From Flavobacteriales bacterium (lineage in GTDB: Bacteria > Bacteroidota > Bacteroidia > Flavobacteriales_E > Vicingaceae), in contig PALM01000016.1 of NCBI GenBank assembly GCA_002706365.1, positions 1 through 41,476 on the forward strand: a stretch of DNA of 41,476 nucleotides. The letters are read 5' to 3'. Each line of letters begins with the position of its first letter. The stretch's first letter is position 1. The notes beneath the pieces are model-generated. The model was not told the DNA's origin, ran no database searches, and was given only the letters and a program-made list of their open reading frames with translations. Both the position numbers and the translations under genes were made by a program. Of this stretch, positions 7,880-28,768 are shown one piece after another.

Positions 7880-7914
7880 ATTCTAGACTCTAGGTTCTAG
7901 ATTCTAGGCTCTAA
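7880..7914. repeat. Array of five 7-bp units (TCTAG type)
   Basis: Units are ATTCTAG, ACTCTAG, GTTCTAG, ATTCTAG, GCTCTAA. The CTA at 7911-7913 in the last unit is the TAG stop of the minus-strand L-2-hydroxyglutarate oxidase gene. Confidence 0.8.
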
Positions 7915-9128
7915 GCAAAAAACTTTTGCTTTTCCGCCATCTCCAAAATATCCTCTCCAATTGCCAAGCAAGCCGTTGCAGCCGGTGAAGGAGCGTTGAG
8001 CACGTGTATGCTGTTATTCACCACTTCTATTTCGAAGTCATCGATCATTTCACCATCCGGTCCTAAGGCCATGGCTCTAACTCCAGAGCGACCTTCACGC
8101 AAGTCATCCATCGTAAGCGATGGGATCAATCTTTGAAGTCGTTCAAGGAATAACTTCTTACTGAAGGCTCTGCGATATTCATCCAATCCAAAACGCCAAT
8201 GCTTGTAGAATAACTTCCAGGTACCGGCAAAACCAAGGGCATCTGCGGTATCCTTTAAGTCGAAGTCGGTTTTGCCGTAACCCTCACGTTTAAAGGTAAA
8301 CACGGCGTTGGGGCCGCATTCTATATTGCCGTCGGTCATACGGGTGAAGTGCACCCCAAGAAATGGGAAAGCGGGATTAGGAACCGGATAGATCAAATGC
8401 TTCACCTTATGCAAAGCCTGATCGGTAAGCTCATAATAATCACCCCTGAACCCAACGATCTGCATTTCGCTTTTTACACCGTCTTTTTTTGCAAGACGGT
8501 CCGACTGCAAACCGCCGCAGAAGATCATATACTTTGCCTTGTAATTCTTCTTCTCTCCGCGAATATGGTTGGTACCATCTACAAATTCCGAATCTACAAA
8601 TGCCTCACCCAATACTACTTCACTCTCGGGATTCTTTGCTAGAGCAAGTTCAGCCATCTTATTGGTAGCGCCAACAAAATCGATGATTCCAGTTACCGGA
8701 ACTTTAATTCCTGCTATACCTGCACACTCCGGTTCTATCTCTCTGATCTGATCTCCATTGATCTTCTCTATGCCTTCAATTCCATTCTGCTGACCAATAC
8801 CGAAAATGCGCTCCATATGCGGCAATTCAGCTTCATCGGTAGCAACAACCACCTTTCCACAAACCTCGTGCTTTACATTGTGCTCTTGAGCGAATTTGAC
8901 CAATTCCTTTCGACCCTTCACACAATTGATGGCCTTTTTTGAGCCGGGTTTGTAGTACAATCCCGAATGGATCACACCCGAATTATGGCCCGTTTGATGT
9001 GCAGCTAGACTGTCTTCTTTCTCTAGAAGTAAGATCTTCTTATTCGGGTATTTCTGTTGAATTTGATATAGGGTGGCGGCTCCAACTATTCCTCCTCCGA
9101 TTATGGCAATATCGAATTCTTTCTCCAT
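7911..9128 (-). CDS. lhgO: L-2-hydroxyglutarate oxidase (LhgO family)
   Basis: The 405-residue FAD-dependent oxidoreductase starts MEKEFDIAIIGGGIVGAATL, with the dinucleotide-binding GGGIVG at 11-16. It has the family stretch HNSGVIHSGLYYKPGSKKA, the middle block GIKVPVTGIIDF, and a C-terminal GIGE-type FAD contact near ATACLAIGEDI. LhgO oxidises L-2-hydroxyglutarate to 2-oxoglutarate, a metabolite-repair role at the membrane. The ATG at 9128 is preferred over an upstream in-frame TTG at 9146, because it gives the usual short lead to the Rossmann fold. It lies 27 bp after the MFS gene and is probably co-transcribed. Its stop is provided by a repeat array. Confidence 0.9.
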   Translation of the reverse strand: MEKEFDIAIIGGGIVGAATLYQIQQKYPNKKILLLEKEDSLAAHQTGHNSGVIHSGLYYKPGSKKAINCVKGRKELVKFAQEHNVKHEVCGKVVVATDEAELPHMERIFGIGQQNGIEGIEKINGDQIREIEPECAGIAGIKVPVTGIIDFVGATNKMAELALAKNPESEVVLGEAFVDSEFVDGTNHIRGEKKNYKAKYMIFCGGLQSDRLAKKDGVKSEMQIVGFRGDYYELTDQALHKVKHLIYPVPNPAFPFLGVHFTRMTDGNIECGPNAVFTFKREGYGKTDFDLKDTADALGFAGTWKLFYKHWRFGLDEYRRAFSKKLFLERLQRLIPSLTMDDLREGRSGVRAMALGPDGEMIDDFEIEVVNNSIHVLNAPSPAATACLAIGEDILEMAEKQKFFA

Positions 9129-9155
9129 CTCAAAAATTTGCTTCAAAATTAAACA

Positions 9156-10460
9156 TTAGGCTGTTTTAGTAGCCTGGATCACCTCCTTTCTGGGCACTCT
9201 ATATAGGAAGAACAATCCCAGTATAAAAAAGGAGATCAATGCAATGATCGAATTGCGCATGCTACCGGTAACTCCTTCAATAAATCCATAGCTAAATGTG
9301 CCAATTACAATTCCCAATTTCTCCAATACATCGTAAAAGCTGAAAAAGGAAGCATAATCTTTGGTTTCGGGAATGAGTTTGGAATAGGTAGAGCGTGAAA
9401 GCGACTGTATCCCTCCCATCACCAAGCCAACCAAGGCCGCCGTAAAATAGAACTCAACTGGTGTGTGAATGAACCATGCGATCACACAAATGCCTATCCA
9501 AATAAATAGAGTCAATGACAATGCCTTGATATTTCCCCATCGGGCTGAAAGCCACGACAATAAATAAGCTCCTCCAATAGCCACAAACTGAATGATCAAT
9601 ACGGAAATGATCAAACCGCTCTTGGCCTGATCCTCTCCCCATTCGATCTCTTTAGCTGCAAAAAGGGTTGCCATCAACATCACCGTTTGTACACCCATGC
9701 TAAAGACAAAAAAGGAGATCAGATATCGGCGAATGGTCTTCATTTCTTTTAGCTGCAACCACACTTGCTTGACCTCTTTCCAACCTTTGGTGAATTTATT
9801 CTCCACCTTACGCTCTGCAACATATACTCTAGGCAATCTTCGATAGGTCACCTGAGCAAAAGCAATCCACCAAATGGCCACACTCACAAATGCCCATCGA
9901 GCATCCATCTCAAAACCCATGATCATTACCAGATTGGCAATAAGAAGAATAGAACTCCCTACATAACCTAAAGAATAACCCTTGGCCGAAATGCGATCGT
10001 GCTCTTCTGCGGGAGCGATCTGAGGTAAATAGGCGTTATAGAAAACAATACTGCCCCAAAATCCTACACTAGCCGTAAAAACCGGTAACATGCTCCATTC
10101 CAAATGCTCAACATCAAAGAAAAAGAGAGCCCCACAAGAGATAGCACCCAAATAACAGAAAAACTGCAAGAATTCCTTTTTGCTATCTGTATAATCGGCA
10201 ATCCCGGAAAGTAAAGGCGAGATCAAAGAAACTACTAGAAATGAAAAAGACGCTACATAGGAATAAAGCTCGGTATTCTTGAAGTTCATCCCCCAGAATG
10301 AAACCATATCTGAAGAAATACCTGCTACCTCAGTTGTAGTAATTGCCTCATAAAACATGGGAAAAATTGCGGTGGTAATTACCAGCGGATATGCAGAATT
10401 GGCCCAGTCGTAGAAGGCCCAGGCATTGACGACTTTGCGGTTGGAGCTCTTATCCATCAT
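9156..10460 (-). CDS. UMF1/Atg22-like MFS transporter
   Basis: This 434-residue polytopic protein has about 12 membrane segments. The N-terminal signature NAWAFYDWANSAYPLVITTAIFP and the central GGIQSLSRSTYSKLIPE motif are characteristic of the UMF1 (Atg22-like) branch of the major facilitator superfamily. Substrates of bacterial members are not established. The start codons MM at 10460/10457 are both plausible. The gene lies 40 bp downstream of the CAP-domain gene and just upstream of lhgO, which suggests a minus-strand operon. Confidence 0.87.
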   Translation of the reverse strand: MMDKSSNRKVVNAWAFYDWANSAYPLVITTAIFPMFYEAITTTEVAGISSDMVSFWGMNFKNTELYSYVASFSFLVVSLISPLLSGIADYTDSKKEFLQFFCYLGAISCGALFFFDVEHLEWSMLPVFTASVGFWGSIVFYNAYLPQIAPAEEHDRISAKGYSLGYVGSSILLIANLVMIMGFEMDARWAFVSVAIWWIAFAQVTYRRLPRVYVAERKVENKFTKGWKEVKQVWLQLKEMKTIRRYLISFFVFSMGVQTVMLMATLFAAKEIEWGEDQAKSGLIISVLIIQFVAIGGAYLLSWLSARWGNIKALSLTLFIWIGICVIAWFIHTPVEFYFTAALVGLVMGGIQSLSRSTYSKLIPETKDYASFFSFYDVLEKLGIVIGTFSYGFIEGVTGSMRNSIIALISFFILGLFFLYRVPRKEVIQATKTA

Positions 10461-10500: not shown

Positions 10501-12858
10501 CTAGTTCTTACAACGCTTACAATATCGCTCTTTAATATCGTAATTCTTCAAGAGTTGAATACCCATGCGATCCTTACTGAACAGATCACAATACTTGTCT
10601 GGATACTGGGCTTCAGTTTTGTCGAGTATTTCAATGAATAACTTATCAGGCACCAATTCACTATCGTAAATGGCCAATTGCAAGAAATAGAATAGATGCT
10701 CCATTTCTACCTCATCTTTCTTGACTATAGGCAATAATGCCTCAATTGCACGAGACGACTGATCTTGGTAGGCCAGATATTTTGCTAGATGATAATGCTG
10801 TTCAGCAGTGAGCTTAGCTACTGGTATCAATTTCATGGCATCTTTGAATGCGCTTTCTCTCTCCTTGGGTTCGTTCTTATCGAAATAATAATCTGCTGCG
10901 ATCATTTTAAAGTTCAGCATGACTTTAGCATATAGATCTGAGCTTAAGAAAGAACGCAATTTTTCAAATGAAGACTCCCATTCATCTACTCTACTCACTT
11001 TAGCACTTCCACTGGCCCATCCTTTAAGTGTAGCAACCAGATAATTGTATCTTATTGTACGATCCGATTGGTCGACCAAGTGAATTTCAAGAAAGGCTGT
11101 TGCCATTGGATTCCCATCAAATACGATTTCTCCTTCTCTTACGGCCGCAACCATTAGATTATTGATCAATGGCAGGTCTGCTCTATCCTGATCCAAACGA
11201 TCCCTTTCAGATAAAACCGCTGCTAATCCTTCTTTATCCTTATTGGCAATCATCTGATTCAACAGCTCAAGAGCCATTTCAACTTCGCCTCTTTTTCTCA
11301 GAAAACGCATGAGCTTCAGTCGATCTTCTTGAGATATATCATCCTTAAACCTAATGCTTCCATACAATGCGATCTCAAGCTGGTTCAATCCATTCATGAA
11401 TTTGGCCAAGTCCTCATCTGTTTTTACCGTTTCCTTTAAATACCTCAGCTTGGCAATAGAGTCCATATCTCTGGTCTCTAACTGATAGATCTTGTTCTGT
11501 TCAAATTCTCTATAAGCTTCCCATGCTATTTCAGTATCCATTTTCTTCTCATCAAGCCAGTCAACTCCTCCAAGACTAGCCGAAAGGGCTTTAATAGCTT
11601 CATCAGTCGACACCTCCTCTGCAACTGGAGAGATCACCTTATGCAAGCCTGCACTATTGATCTCAAAATCCATATTGTTAAGCAATGCATTCAACTCCTC
11701 AACCTCTTGCTTGAAGACTTCGGGATTAGTCAATGAAAGCGAGAAATTCAATGTGTCTTCATTATACACACTATCCTTTTCAGCTTCTTCCAATTTGAAA
11801 GGAAGATCTAGCCATCGTTCATTCTCTACTTCAATTCGATTATAAGGTATAGTAGCGCATTTACAACCGTTTTGAACGATTATACCATTTACCTCATAGC
11901 CGCCTTTTAAAAGCTCTTGAGGCACATCACCCATATAAAGCTTCACATCTTCACGATCTGGTTCTTCAGAAGTCATATTGACAAAAACACCTTTTCGCAA
12001 AGGCTGAAAAAGATAGCCATCGGTCACTTCACCTGGAAAGAGTCGGTTACTGCCTCCACAGGCAAATTGCTCATCTACTACAATCTCTGCGCAGATCGCA
12101 CTTCCACCAAAACTCAATACTTTATCTACTACTTTCTTATTGTGGTATTTGAAATAAAGCTTTCCATCTTCTACGACAAAAGCATCTGAAAACATCTCAG
12201 ATGCAGTTGAGAACTCCTGGTTGAACTCTTTACACTTATCTTCTTGAAAGGGTTCAATTCCTCGGAAGTTGAATTTCTGCTTCACCCCTTTATACATTTC
12301 GTAAGGCATTGATGCAAGAACAGCAACGATCACAAACTCCTTTCGCTCTGTTTCATGCACTGCAATACCCACTTCATAGAAATTGGGATCATCTAAATTT
12401 AGTTTACTGTCTTCCTCCTCTATCCAAGAGTAAATAGCAGCTTTGATCAATAGCTCTTCACTACTTAGAACAACTCTCCCACTTTTCTCGTCAATTTCAC
12501 CCCTTGAATTTGGAGCGATCATCGCCAGATTCTCTCCTGCCTCTGCATTTAGTGCTTCATAATAGACCAGACGATCTACAAGAGTCTTCTTTTGATCTTT
12601 ATCTTGATCGTGAACCAACCTCCCTTTTTCGGCAATGTATTCCGCCTGATCGAATGCTACAGCATCCAAAACTTCAGATCGTTTGAGGGGAGGCAGATTA
12701 TTGGCCTCCCTATACTGATCAAGCTGAAACATGAGTTCCTGTTCTAGGTTGGGCAGCTGGAAATCATCCTGCGCTTGAATATTAGTGGCCGATAGGCATA
12801 AAAAAAGCCCTGTCATCAAAAGATGAAAGGGCTTTAAAGTGTTTGTTGTAATTGTCAT
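10501..12858 (-). CDS. Secreted CAP (SCP/PR-1)-domain protein with long helical C-terminal region
   Basis: The 785-residue protein has a signal peptide (about residues 1-30, ending NIQAQ), then a CAP domain at about 40-180 with its hallmarks: FQLDQYREANNLPPL, the conserved histidine in GRLVHDQD, and EAGENLAMI. The central part (about 200-340) is beta-rich and cysteine-containing. The remaining about 400 residues are helical and resemble a solenoid, without clear TPR consensus. CAP proteins in bacteria act at the envelope, often with unknown ligand. The ATG at 12858 lies 10 bp after the OmpA-family stop. A terminator-like hairpin with a U-tract is embedded in codons 8-20. Confidence 0.8.
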   Translation of the reverse strand: MTITTNTLKPFHLLMTGLFLCLSATNIQAQDDFQLPNLEQELMFQLDQYREANNLPPLKRSEVLDAVAFDQAEYIAEKGRLVHDQDKDQKKTLVDRLVYYEALNAEAGENLAMIAPNSRGEIDEKSGRVVLSSEELLIKAAIYSWIEEEDSKLNLDDPNFYEVGIAVHETERKEFVIVAVLASMPYEMYKGVKQKFNFRGIEPFQEDKCKEFNQEFSTASEMFSDAFVVEDGKLYFKYHNKKVVDKVLSFGGSAICAEIVVDEQFACGGSNRLFPGEVTDGYLFQPLRKGVFVNMTSEEPDREDVKLYMGDVPQELLKGGYEVNGIIVQNGCKCATIPYNRIEVENERWLDLPFKLEEAEKDSVYNEDTLNFSLSLTNPEVFKQEVEELNALLNNMDFEINSAGLHKVISPVAEEVSTDEAIKALSASLGGVDWLDEKKMDTEIAWEAYREFEQNKIYQLETRDMDSIAKLRYLKETVKTDEDLAKFMNGLNQLEIALYGSIRFKDDISQEDRLKLMRFLRKRGEVEMALELLNQMIANKDKEGLAAVLSERDRLDQDRADLPLINNLMVAAVREGEIVFDGNPMATAFLEIHLVDQSDRTIRYNYLVATLKGWASGSAKVSRVDEWESSFEKLRSFLSSDLYAKVMLNFKMIAADYYFDKNEPKERESAFKDAMKLIPVAKLTAEQHYHLAKYLAYQDQSSRAIEALLPIVKKDEVEMEHLFYFLQLAIYDSELVPDKLFIEILDKTEAQYPDKYCDLFSKDRMGIQLLKNYDIKERYCKRCKN
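12797..12840 (-). terminator. Strong intrinsic-terminator-like hairpin inside the CAP-gene signal-peptide codons
   Basis: Read on the minus strand, AAAGCCCT pairs perfectly with AGGGCTTT and CATC with GATG around a TTTT loop, followed by seven consecutive T. The hairpin covers 12804-12835 and the U-tract 12798-12806. It is placed to end OmpA-family transcripts but lies within the first 20 codons of the next gene, so it may act as an attenuator. Confidence 0.75.
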
Positions 12859-12868
12859 TCTCCTATGT

Positions 12869-14104
12869 TTAAAGGATCTGGAAACTTACTCTTTGATTTT
12901 GTGCAGGATCACTGCTCGACTTCATCATATCTGTCTCTTTGCTTTCATAAGGAATCCGCTCTTTGGCTATCCCAAGCTTGATAAGCTCCTTCTGAACATT
13001 AAATGCTCTTCGTTTGCCAATAAAGGCTACTTCCGACTCAGATGGATCGGCATGACCGATGATCTTGATCTTCACATTTGGATTGCTCTTCAAGTATTCT
13101 GCAATCTTTGTGAGTTTTGCCATTTCTGCTCCACCAGGAACAAATTTCTTTGATACGAACATGATCTCTTCAGATGCAGGATAAGGAGCTTTCTCCTCCT
13201 TCGCAGCAGTTTCTGTTGCGGCTGCAGTTGCAGTTGCTGCCTCAGCATTTTTCTTCGCACTCTCGGCAGCCTTAGTTCCGTCTGAATTCAATAAATGCGT
13301 TTTTTGAGCTTCTTCTCTTCGGGATTCATCAGTACTAAAGCTTTTGAATTCCACTTCCATGGCGCCGCCGGCGATCTTATCGCACTGACAATCGCCATCT
13401 AGAACATCCATTGGAATTACGGAAACATCATCAATAAAGTAATAGGCATTGTATTCCTGACGACCAGTGAACTCTCTCGACAGTCTTAAAGTTTCTAAAG
13501 CAGTTTCTTCATCAGTGGTGAAGTTTCCAATGGTAATGAATTGCTCGCCTCCACCTGCTTGATAAACTCTACAAATTGGTGTCCATAGATACTGTTGTTC
13601 AAAAGGCTTATTCACCACACTCTTGATCTGCGCATCGAATTCTAAATTCTTAGATGTACCATCCAAGACTGAATCTCTACTCACATACATGGCAAGGTTG
13701 TTTGCGGCGTATTTCGACATATCAGAAAGGCTCACATAAAAGCGCATGCAGTATTTTTTGCCTTTGCTTAATGGATTTGTGAGTTTAGTAGTTAGATAAG
13801 TTCTTGGCATCCTACCGCGATAACCGTAAAAAGATACTCCAACGTAATTTTTTCCTGTTCTGGCCGGCTCTTTACCGTATTTGTTCTCCGGTACTTCAAA
13901 GTCACCACTTCTGGCATCCTCACTGTAGAGGTCTACCGGATTCATGGTTGCCGACATCCAAGGAGAAGCCAACTCAATCTGTCCGCCTTCCTTAACTTTT
14001 CCATCAACTTCCTCAAAACTAGGGTTTGGCACTAAATTGTGTTCTTCCTGGGCTGATAAACCCACAGTAAGCAGCAAGCTGCAAGCAATAAGTAATGTTC
14101 TCAT
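12869..14104 (-). CDS. OmpA-family outer-membrane protein
   Basis: The 411-residue protein has a signal peptide (MRTLLIACSLLLTVGLSAQ). An N-terminal module begins NLVPNPSFEE, as in carbohydrate-binding-like modules of Bacteroidota secreted proteins. A low-complexity alanine/threonine/glutamate stretch follows (about 275-300), then a C-terminal OmpA peptidoglycan-binding domain (about 305-411) with IKIIGHADPSESEVAFIGKR and the arginine-ended NQRVSFQIL. It probably links the outer membrane to peptidoglycan. The terminator hairpin just downstream separates it partly from the CAP gene. Confidence 0.86.
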   Translation of the reverse strand: MRTLLIACSLLLTVGLSAQEEHNLVPNPSFEEVDGKVKEGGQIELASPWMSATMNPVDLYSEDARSGDFEVPENKYGKEPARTGKNYVGVSFYGYRGRMPRTYLTTKLTNPLSKGKKYCMRFYVSLSDMSKYAANNLAMYVSRDSVLDGTSKNLEFDAQIKSVVNKPFEQQYLWTPICRVYQAGGGEQFITIGNFTTDEETALETLRLSREFTGRQEYNAYYFIDDVSVIPMDVLDGDCQCDKIAGGAMEVEFKSFSTDESRREEAQKTHLLNSDGTKAAESAKKNAEAATATAAATETAAKEEKAPYPASEEIMFVSKKFVPGGAEMAKLTKIAEYLKSNPNVKIKIIGHADPSESEVAFIGKRRAFNVQKELIKLGIAKERIPYESKETDMMKSSSDPAQNQRVSFQIL

Positions 14105-21279: not shown

Positions 21280-21729
21280 CTACTCTGCTACTACCTCAAA
21301 ATCGATAGTAAGATCCACTTCTTTATGCAAACGGATTTCAGCTTGATAAGTACCAATCTCCTTGATCTGCGATCCTAAGATTTTGATATTCTTCTTATCC
21401 ACTTGATGGCCTTTCGCTTGAATTGCATCGGCTAACTGAATAGTATTGACAGAACCAAAGATTTTCTTACCGGCTTCACCAACTTTAGCACCCACAGTGA
21501 TCTTCTCTGCTTTTAGTGCTTCTGCTGTTTTCTGAGCCGCATCTTTGATCTTAGCTTCTTTATGAGATCTCTGACGCATATTCTCTTCCCATACCTTGCG
21601 GTTTGAAGAAGTTGCAGCCAAAGCCTTACCTTGAGGAATTAGGAAGTTACGAGCATAACCCGGCTTCACACTTACCAATTCGTCTTTGAACCCTAGGTTC
21701 TCGATGTCCTCTTTTAATATAATGTCCAT
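21280..21729 (-). CDS. rplI: 50S ribosomal protein L9
   Basis: The 149-residue protein matches L9 in length and layout. The N-terminal rRNA-binding domain is MDIILKEDIENLGFKDELVSV and KPGYARNFLIPQGKALAAT, followed by a long connecting helix (about 45-75) and a C-terminal domain from GKKIFGSVN onwards. L9 binds 23S rRNA near the L1 stalk and supports reading-frame maintenance. It is the last gene of the conserved rpsF-rpsR-rplI operon, 14 bp after rpsR, and is followed by a clear terminator. Confidence 0.98.
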   Translation of the reverse strand: MDIILKEDIENLGFKDELVSVKPGYARNFLIPQGKALAATSSNRKVWEENMRQRSHKEAKIKDAAQKTAEALKAEKITVGAKVGEAGKKIFGSVNTIQLADAIQAKGHQVDKKNIKILGSQIKEIGTYQAEIRLHKEVDLTIDFEVVAE

Positions 21730-21743
21730 TTTCTTCCCTCCGC

Positions 21744-22013
21744 TTATTTAAGTAAGTCAGCAACGTAAGGCATAAGACCCAAATGACGGGCACGCTTTAC
21801 AGCTTGAGCTACTTTTCGTTGATACTTAAGAGAAGTTCCGGTAATTCTTCTTGGAAGAAGTTTTCCCTGCTCGTTCACGAACTGCAAAAGGAAATCCGGA
21901 TCCTTATAATCGATATACTTGATACGATTCTTCTTGAATCGACAGTACTTTTCTTTCTTTACGTCAATCGCTGGTGGATTGAGGTATCTGATTTCTGATG
22001 AATTCTCAGCCAT
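21744..22013 (-). CDS. rpsR: 30S ribosomal protein S18
   Basis: The 89-residue protein carries the S18 core: [20 protein letters not shown], then [34 protein letters not shown]18 pairs with S6 on the central domain of 16S rRNA. The N-terminal extension of about 20 residues is common in Bacteroidota. It lies 21 bp after rpsF and 14 bp before rplI, the usual operon order. Confidence 0.98.
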
Positions 22014-25834: not shown

Positions 25835-28768
25835 ATGTCTAAATCATTGAAAAGATTCGGAGTATTGCTCCTTATCTCATCATTTGCGCTATTTCAAATA
25901 GCCTGTGGTCCTAAAGGTGAAACAAACACCTCTAAAGACTACGAAACAGTAGAGGGCGACCCTACGAACACTAGAATTTACACTCTAGATAATGGACTTA
26001 AAGTCTATCTATCAGTAAACGAGGAAGCACCTCGAGTGCACACTTCTATCGCCGTGAGAGCGGGAAGTAAGAACGATCCTGCTACTGCAACCGGTCTTGC
26101 TCACTATCTTGAGCATATGCTCTTCAAAGGCACAGATAAATACGGTACTACAGACTTTTCGAAAGAAGGTCCAATGCTGGATGAGATTGACAGTCTATAT
26201 GAAGTTTACAGAGGCACAAGCGATGCTGAAGCGAGAACCATGATCTATGCAATGATCGATAGCATCTCTCTTGAGGCATCTAAATTGGCCATTGCCAATG
26301 AGTACGATAAAATGGTGTCTGAAATGGGTGCTAAAGGAACCAACGCTTATACCTCTCAAGAGCGCACTGTGTATATCAATGATATTCCTACCAATCAATT
26401 GGAGAAATGGATCAAAGTTGAAGCAGAACGTTTCAGAAATCCTCAAATCCGTCTTTTCCACACGGAATTGGAAGCTGTTTATGAAGAAAAGAATAGAAGT
26501 CTCGATAGCGATGGAAGCAAAGCTTTCACTTCTCTTATGGATAATTTGTTCCCAAATCACCAATACGGACAACAAACCACCATTGGTACGATCGATCACC
26601 TAAAGAACCCTTCAATTACAGAGATCAAGAAGTACTATAACAACTACTATGTGCCTAATAATATGGCCATCATTCTAGCTGGTGATTTCAATCCTGACTC
26701 AGTGATCAAAATGGTAAGAGAAAACTTTTCTTCTATGGAGCCTGCAGATGTACCTGAATTCGCAGTAACCAAAGAAGAGCCGATCAAATCTATTGTAAGA
26801 GATTCAGTTGTTGGTCCGGATGCTGAGCTTATGTATATGGCTTATCGTTTCGACGGAGCACATAGTAAAGATGCTGAGTTGATTCAAATGTGTGATATGA
26901 TCCTCGCAAATTCAACTGCTGGATTGATCGACCTAAACCTCAACCAGCAGCAAAAAGTATTGAGAGCTTCATCATTCACTTATATTCTAAGTGATTATTC
27001 AGCTCATATGATGTATGGTAGTCCTAAACAAGGTCAAAGCTTAAGAGAAGTTGAGCAATTGTTGCTAGACCAGATCGATAGCCTAAAAGCTGGGAATTTC
27101 CCAGACTGGTTGCCACAAGCTGTGATCAACGATCTTAAATTATCAAGGATCAAGACTTACGAAAACAATCGCGGTCGTACAAATATGATGGTGAATGCCT
27201 TCATCCAAAAAACAGATTGGGAAGAAGAGATCAAAGAGATCGAAGCATTAGAAAAGTACACTAAGCAAGATATCATCGAATTCGCTAAAAAGCGTTACGG
27301 TGACAACTATGTGGTGGTTTACAAGCAAACCGGAGTTGACAGCACGAAAAAATCGGTTGAAAAACCAAATATCACTCCTATCCAGGTAAACCGCGATACT
27401 GCTTCTCCATTCCTTACAAACATCACTAAGATGGAAACCAAAATGATTGAGCCACGCTTCTTGAATTATTCAGAAGATGTGACAGAAACCACTTTGGATA
27501 ATGGTATTGTCGTAAGATCAGTTAAAAATGAGAACAACGACCTCTTCACACTATATTATCTATTCGATATGGGTAAGAACAACAATGTGAAGTTAGACAT
27601 GGCAGTTGACTATCTTCCATTCTTAGGTACAGACAAATACAGTCCTTCTGAAATTCAGCAAGAGTTCTATAAGATCGGCTGCAGCTTTGATGTATTTGCA
27701 AGTGATGATAGAGTGTATGTAACGCTAAGTGGCTTGAATGAAAACTTCGATGAGGGTGTTAAGCTATTCGAGCATCTTTTGGCCAATGCAAAACCGAATC
27801 AAGAAGCATATGACAATCTAGTATCGAACACTTTGAAAGGAAGATCAGATGCAAAGCTTTCAAAAGGAACTATTCTTTTTAGCGGAATGATGAGTTATGC
27901 GATGTACGGAAATGACAATCCGTTCAAGAATATCCTTAGCGAAGAAGAGCTTAAGGCAATGGATCCATCAGAGCTTACTAAGATGATCAATGGTTTGAGC
28001 AATTATGAGCATAGAGTATTGTATTACGGCCCACTTAATGAAGAAGAACTTTCTGCAAAGCTTGTTAAGATGCACAATGCACCTGAAAAAATGACAGCGC
28101 TACCAGAAGGAAAGAACTTCATGGAAGTTGCCAATGAAGGCAATTCTGTTTATGTAGTGGATTACGATATGGAGCAAGCAGAGATCCTAATGCTTTCTAA
28201 AAAGAAGCTTTACGATCCTAAGAATGTTGCTGCTGCTGCAATCTACAATGAATACTTCGGAGGTGGAATGGGATCAATTGTATTCCAGGAAATGAGAGAG
28301 TCTAAAGCCTTGGCTTATTCTGTGTATTCCGTATACACTTCTCCTTCTGATTCTGCTAAGTCGCACTATGTACTAGCTTACATAGGAACGCAAGCTGATA
28401 AGCTTCCTGAGGCAATGGCAGGTATGACTGAGCTATTGAATGATATGCCGGAATCTGAAAAGAGCTTTGAATTAGCTAAGAAAGCGGCTATAGAAAAGAT
28501 CAGAACAGAGCGTATCACCAAGTCTTCTAAATTGTGGAACTACGAGTCTGCATTGAAGCGCGGTGTTGATTACGATCTTCGTAAAGATATTTACGAGCAA
28601 GTGCCAAACATGACAATGGCAGATCTTAAGGCATTCCATGAAGAATTCATCAAAAACAGCGATTACAACATCATGGTAATTGGCGATAAGAAGAAATTGG
28701 ATATGGCTGCATTGAAGTCGTACGGACCGGTAAATTACTTGAGTCTAGAAGAAGTATTCGGCTATTAA
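25835..28768 (+). CDS. M16-family (pitrilysin-like) zinc metallopeptidase lipoprotein
   Basis: The 977-residue protein has a lipoprotein signal (lipobox ending QIAC, Cys24) and two M16 halves. The first has the inverted zinc motif HYLEH (H90, E93, H94) and the downstream glutamate near 217 in ELEAVYEEKNR. The second half (about 545-977) lacks the HxxEH motif, as usual for the inactive partner domain. An insertion of about 45 helical residues (about 115-160) lies between HxxEH and the distal glutamate. It should act as a peptide-degrading or processing enzyme at the envelope. A bidirectional terminator follows. Confidence 0.93.
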   Translation: MSKSLKRFGVLLLISSFALFQIACGPKGETNTSKDYETVEGDPTNTRIYTLDNGLKVYLSVNEEAPRVHTSIAVRAGSKNDPATATGLAHYLEHMLFKGTDKYGTTDFSKEGPMLDEIDSLYEVYRGTSDAEARTMIYAMIDSISLEASKLAIANEYDKMVSEMGAKGTNAYTSQERTVYINDIPTNQLEKWIKVEAERFRNPQIRLFHTELEAVYEEKNRSLDSDGSKAFTSLMDNLFPNHQYGQQTTIGTIDHLKNPSITEIKKYYNNYYVPNNMAIILAGDFNPDSVIKMVRENFSSMEPADVPEFAVTKEEPIKSIVRDSVVGPDAELMYMAYRFDGAHSKDAELIQMCDMILANSTAGLIDLNLNQQQKVLRASSFTYILSDYSAHMMYGSPKQGQSLREVEQLLLDQIDSLKAGNFPDWLPQAVINDLKLSRIKTYENNRGRTNMMVNAFIQKTDWEEEIKEIEALEKYTKQDIIEFAKKRYGDNYVVVYKQTGVDSTKKSVEKPNITPIQVNRDTASPFLTNITKMETKMIEPRFLNYSEDVTETTLDNGIVVRSVKNENNDLFTLYYLFDMGKNNNVKLDMAVDYLPFLGTDKYSPSEIQQEFYKIGCSFDVFASDDRVYVTLSGLNENFDEGVKLFEHLLANAKPNQEAYDNLVSNTLKGRSDAKLSKGTILFSGMMSYAMYGNDNPFKNILSEEELKAMDPSELTKMINGLSNYEHRVLYYGPLNEEELSAKLVKMHNAPEKMTALPEGKNFMEVANEGNSVYVVDYDMEQAEILMLSKKKLYDPKNVAAAAIYNEYFGGGMGSIVFQEMRESKALAYSVYSVYTSPSDSAKSHYVLAYIGTQADKLPEAMAGMTELLNDMPESEKSFELAKKAAIEKIRTERITKSSKLWNYESALKRGVDYDLRKDIYEQVPNMTMADLKAFHEEFIKNSDYNIMVIGDKKKLDMAALKSYGPVNYLSLEEVFGY

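Follow-up and report, generated by a model that had tools for sequence, protein, structure and literature searches.

A hairpin lying within the signal-peptide codons of a CAP-domain gene was analyzed in a 41,476-nucleotide stretch of DNA from a Flavobacteriales bacterium (GenBank contig PALM01000016.1, hereafter the window). We consider it likely, with a probability of roughly 0.72, that the OmpA-family gene directly upstream has its own intrinsic terminator in this hairpin, that the terminator is partly read through, that its letters also serve the CAP signal peptide, and that it lowers expression of the CAP gene and of the genes downstream. At the level of sequence, the hairpin itself, the conservation of its stem over its loop and its link to the OmpA gene are evident. 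The CAP gene is probably made only when the terminator leaks or is overridden, and relief of termination by translation from the CAP start appears plausible.

Anatomy and genomic context of the hairpin

Four genes are arranged on the minus strand of the window in the order OmpA-family gene (12869-14104, 411 aa; Pfam PF00691, E 1.9e-8), CAP-domain gene (10501-12858, 785 aa; Pfam PF00188, E 1.1e-11), MFS/ATG22-type transporter gene (9156-10460; Pfam PF11700 and PF07690) and FAD-dependent, lhgO-like oxidoreductase gene (7911-9146; Pfam PF01266). The OmpA stop and the CAP start are separated by a gap of 10 nt, and both the order and the gap are compatible with co-transcription. The CAP start codon lies upstream of the hairpin, the OmpA gene is the presumed owner of the terminator, and the transporter and oxidoreductase genes lie downstream, the former within reach of read-through.

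The hairpin occupies positions 12804-12835 of the minus strand, that is, CAP codons 8-20, where the first-pass annotation, made from the letters alone, had placed it; both the sequence and its folding agree with that placement, and the distance given there to the OmpA stop was also right (33 nt lie between stop and hairpin). An outer stem of 8 bp (AAAGCCCT/AGGGCTTT, 12828-12835 with 12804-12811) is followed by a U/C mismatch (12827/12812), an inner stem (12822-12826 with 12813-12817) and a TTTT loop (12818-12821). The outer stem is as first described, but the inner one has 5 bp rather than the 4 bp originally assigned to it. Likewise, the U tract does contain seven T (12800-12806), but pairing with the A tract is open to those at 12804-12806, three in number, which are shared with the 8-bp stem, so the element may be read either as 8 bp with a free tail of four T or as 5 bp with seven T. 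A G+C-rich stem at 12804-12835 is followed directly by a U run, the arrangement by which intrinsic terminators are recognized. An 81-nt stretch folded with a dG of -21.9, whereas 200 shuffles averaged -8.3 and none of them was as good (z -5.3). A simple consensus terminator scan returned six terminator-like sites, among which the hairpin at 12804-12835 was absent. An Rfam scan of the window at gathering score gave no match to any curated family, be it riboswitch, leader or thermometer, and a known RNA element was accordingly dropped as the identity of the hairpin.

A sample of 441,344 bases (about 15% of the genome), made up of the window and 20 other stretches and containing 363 ORFs with a length of 100 aa or above, was surveyed for hairpins with dG of -16 or lower and at least five T in eight. 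The CAP hairpin was the sole one found in the sense strand of a gene, while the others above the cut-off were located within 150 nt after a stop codon (21), elsewhere between genes (13) or antisense within genes (3). At a looser limit of -14, five sense and 11 antisense in-gene hairpins were recorded. With one strong sense case in the 441-kb sample, in-gene terminators as a general habit of this genome are unsupported. This genome has another, weaker hairpin within a gene (L043:5103-5138, dG -13.7), which lies close to the beginning of a membrane-protein-like reading frame.

The pattern AAGCC-N8-30-GGCTTTTT was matched 57 times genome-wide, compared with two matches for the reversed pattern, and the CAP hairpin, which carries it, thus follows the same grammar as the terminators of the genome. 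Classification covered 58 matches, one above 57 because of nested matches, among which 31 were found after a stop codon and 19 at other intergenic positions; of the rest, 2 were antisense and 6 fell within an ORF in sense orientation. The last group comprised four matches in ORFs of 91-97 aa, one that barely folds (-6.7) and the CAP hairpin, which is consequently the only well-folding match on the sense strand of an ORF that exceeds 100 aa. Twenty of the 31 after-stop terminators begin 19-43 nt past the stop; the corresponding value for the CAP hairpin is 34 by the same measure. One terminator sequence was also observed in identical form at two sites of this genome, L113:1482 and 1762, which are separated by 280 bases.

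Junctions of OmpA-type and CAP genes across the family

A total of 30 CAP loci were inspected (L025, L027, L029 and L030 fall outside this number), and 19 of them, all from the family and immediately preceded by an OmpA-type gene, were taken as the junction set. The other 11 were excluded, ten since no OmpA-type gene was seen directly upstream and one (L026) since it lies outside the family; L026 has an OmpA-like neighbour, with no hairpin listed. A hairpin with a T run was found at 8 of the 19 junctions, representing five genera, with dG from -13.9 to -24.8, and its onset lies 13-36 nt past the OmpA stop (the core stem of the congener being counted by eye), a range that includes the 33-nt spacing in the window. 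The remaining 11 junctions have no hairpin better than -8.9. Among 228 control windows inside CAP genes, none reached -14 and the best gave -13.9, a value equal to that of the weakest of the eight junctions.

In five of the eight junctions (G006, G010, G019, G011 and G020) the hairpin is intergenic and ends 9-35 nt ahead of the CAP start, and in three (G000, G001 and G009) it falls within the signal-peptide codons. The hairpin of G009 (locus L022, CAP codons 5-13) is a different one in another genus, and 6 of 20,000 synonymous recodings were as stable. Changes within the stems were noted by eye, namely a paired change from T-A to C-G for G010 and G019 and a change from G-T to G-C for G020 and G011.

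The hairpin accompanies a longer OmpA type of about 400 aa, whereas the 11 junctions without it have a different, shorter OmpA gene, so the presence of the hairpin is inseparable from the type of OmpA gene. When mapped on trees of the same 18 genomes, hairpin presence required one change on the OmpA tree versus four on the CAP tree (L033, with a short neighbour of 129 aa, was excluded from the OmpA tree). Since presence tracks the OmpA tree, the hairpin is best regarded as the OmpA gene's 3' end rather than as a device of the CAP gene. The embedded state took three changes on the OmpA tree, since the order of G000, G001 and G006 lacks resolution there; in a larger CAP tree that also includes two rows without an OmpA neighbour, G000 and G001 were joined at 100. 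Three loci with the shorter OmpA type and no hairpin (L004, L005 and L006, from G002, G015 and G003, respectively) have OmpA and CAP frames that overlap by 4 nt, and the coupling of the two genes therefore varies inside one family.

These junctions also bear on the best-surviving alternative, by which the hairpin, without ending transcription, modulates initiation on the CAP gene or shields a processed OmpA mRNA at its 3' end. Its location 24 nt past the CAP start codon favours this alternative, and protection of 3' ends by stem-loops is known (PMC9045158). All eight hairpin-bearing junctions, however, have a T run behind the stem, although neither role needs one, and in five of the eight the hairpin lies outside the CAP gene, and we regard this alternative as unlikely.

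Constraint on the hairpin letters and the CAP reading frame

The CAP frame, read from codon 1, crosses the terminator stem, and its first 30 codons (12769-12858, minus strand) encode a signal peptide, MTITTNTLKPFHLLMTGLFLCLSATNIQAQ, assigned by eye from the translation. The hairpin encodes residues K9-P10 and G17-L18-F19-L20 (AAG CCC ... GGG CTT TTT TTA, read as K-P ... G-L-F-L), the A tract giving a basic residue and the T tract part of the hydrophobic core, and its letters thereby serve both the n- and the h-region. It might accordingly be supposed that the hairpin is an idle by-product of the signal peptide, whose Lys-rich start and Leu/Phe-rich core would yield A- and T-rich arms. Terminator letters do resemble signal peptides: when 51 terminators of the window's genome were read in frame, 37 of 153 frames were open with an early K or R and a hydrophobic end, compared with 193 among 5,000 frames drawn at random from the window. 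Against this explanation, 20,000 synonymous versions of the 14-codon segment were generated, with codons weighted as in the genome sample, and none was as stable as the native hairpin (mean -4.9, z -5.7). The peptide alone is insufficient to explain the CAP hairpin. In the congener G001, 34 of 20,000 recodings were as stable (z -3.2), which indicates that the peptide accounts for more of the hairpin there than in the window's genome.

The first-pass annotation had proposed a comparison of CAP orthologues, and recoding, the stem and loop contrast and the control junctions support conservation of the hairpin beyond the needs of the signal peptide. The window's genus comprises two genomes, so this conservation test consists of one genome pair. 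The two genomes are collinear across the region, and their CAP genes share 56% DNA identity over 614 codons, while identity reaches 77% in the hairpin codons and 45% in the remaining 17 aligned signal-peptide codons. Since 39 of 602 windows of the CAP gene are at least as similar in DNA as the hairpin, its similarity is by itself unremarkable; what is striking is the distribution of the substitutions, with 0 of 24 in stem positions versus 5 of 8 in loop or mismatch positions (Fisher p 0.0003). Degenerate residues shared by both proteins use the identical codon in 6 of 6 cases within the hairpin versus 47.6% of 271 gene-wide. No compensatory stem change was seen within the window's genus in this one genome pair. 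A chance origin of the hairpin was ruled out by the shuffles, the synonymous recoding and the stem versus loop contrast. The by-product explanation is further opposed by the congener, in which the stem is kept and the loop changed, and by three further genera that have an intergenic hairpin at this junction; it is rated slightly below the translation or processing role.

At three control junctions with a clear terminator in both genomes (after aconitase, after the gene at 21280-21729 and after the gene at 25835-28768), the position was kept and the stem letters were changed. To keep the place and change the letters is the normal mode of terminator evolution, and the fact that the letters of the CAP hairpin are kept as well fits a second constraint from the protein reading. 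For the L043 hairpin, the core stem is kept in the congener with a broken T tract (protein 60% identical), and kept letters alone are thus no proof of a terminator. A weak intergenic hairpin-like stretch on the plus strand of the window (21974-22013, dG -10.6) is nearly unchanged in letters in the congener; clear terminators near it were rewritten between the two genomes, and it corresponds to no Rfam match in the window.

The position of the CAP start was also considered. The window's genome and its congener both have an ATG 10 nt past the OmpA stop, with a frame open through the hairpin. A further in-frame ATG, a possible internal start, lies inside the hairpin at codon 15 (12814-12816, minus strand), and no in-frame ATG, GTG or TTG was found between codons 15 and 43. 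A CAP start at codon 15 or later, which would turn the hairpin into an intergenic terminator of the ordinary kind, is the least probable explanation: the codon-15 ATG is kept in the congener and the hairpin ends ahead of the start used in the five intergenic cases, but the shorter product, MTGLFLCL..., would have no basic residue, both genomes keep the upstream ATG with its open frame, and a start at codon 15 would still precede the U tract. Given the lack of in-frame starts between codons 15 and 43, an independent promoter with a start beyond the hairpin, named in the first-pass annotation as what would speak against its proposal, is unlikely for a secreted product. Bacteroidota promoters carry the motif TTG-N17-23-TAnnTTTG, and a scan for it with one mismatch, from the OmpA upstream region to the MFS start, gave two weak sites (12401 and 11353), both inside the CAP gene. 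A promoter of the CAP gene's own after the hairpin was excluded by the position of the start codon.

Proposed mechanism and relation to known systems

In the preferred reading, that of a partly read-through OmpA terminator, RNA polymerase leaving the OmpA gene would meet the terminator at the usual distance after the stop, and since the CAP start lies upstream of the hairpin, the terminator letters would double as the n- and h-region of the signal peptide. Polymerase would stop on a good part of the transcripts, so that more OmpA is made than its neighbours' products, and read-through would supply the CAP, MFS and oxidoreductase genes. A ribosome finishing at the OmpA stop would fall short of the stem, whereas one in the CAP frame, some codons into the 5' arm, could prevent termination. 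A ribosome waiting at a start codon has a footprint that extends to about +15. The earlier suggestion that a ribosome at the start codon (12856-12858) would itself cover the hairpin did not hold, as the first base of the stem is +24 (1-based), and a ribosome would have to elongate through several codons to disturb it. A new CAP ribosome would have to advance by these codons before polymerase adds the next 60 nt, for which polymerase takes roughly a second or two, and termination is therefore expected as the default.

It can be suggested, tentatively and at low probability, that terminators are ready-made signal peptides and that a gene for a secreted protein can capture its neighbour's terminator and with it a brake released solely by its own translation; expression would then depend on a ribosome that starts quickly behind polymerase. 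Within the family, such capture may have happened twice, in the window's genus and in G009. Two genomes with an intergenic hairpin, G011 and G020, have a frame that runs open across it as far as the OmpA stop yet lacks an ATG, and from such a state a new upstream start could capture the hairpin; the window's genus may have gone through a capture of this kind. If the preferred reading is true, about 36 bases carry two separately constrained messages, an RNA shape and the amino acids for export, of which gene finders and terminator finders each see one. The arrangement would be a compact tie between the transcription of a secreted protein and its own translation, and would give a simple rule for where in-gene terminators are tolerated, namely in signal-peptide codons.

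Several systems resemble parts of this arrangement. In E. coli, the frd terminator acts as the ampC attenuator and an attenuator lies between rplL and rpoB; in these as in the window, the terminator of an upstream gene would serve as the attenuator of the next, but both E. coli elements are intergenic. Internal partial terminators set the operon stoichiometry of ABC importers in Ruminiclostridium (PMC9045158). As there, the hairpin in the window follows the first gene, which would be produced in excess, but the Ruminiclostridium terminators are intergenic and the one in the window lies within the coding sequence of the next gene; intergenic placement is found in five of the eight hairpin-bearing junctions. 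In the pil1 locus of S. gallolyticus, translation into the stem blocks termination, and a stop at least 28 nt ahead of the stem leaves the terminator working, while a frame ending beside the stem or running through it opens the terminator (PMC3894217). By this rule the OmpA stop, 33 nt ahead of the stem, would leave the terminator active, and in both systems a reading frame crosses the stem. The frame in pil1 is a phase-variable leader peptide that opens the stem, with pilA starting downstream (PMC3894217), whereas the frame across the stem in the window is the regulated CAP gene itself; the sequence around the hairpin showed neither a repeat nor a leader, the gap between the OmpA and CAP genes being 10 nt. 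ORF-internal 3' ends have also been mapped by Term-seq in E. coli, some of them arising from intrinsic termination (aceK int); these likewise lie within coding sequence, and the excerpted text of the report (PMC7815308) draws no link to signal peptides. No description of a terminator inside signal-peptide codons was found in full-text literature searches, as judged from the result listings. Internal partial terminators and terminators relieved by ribosomes are thus already known, and the dual use of a terminator as a signal peptide is the unusual part of the arrangement reported here.
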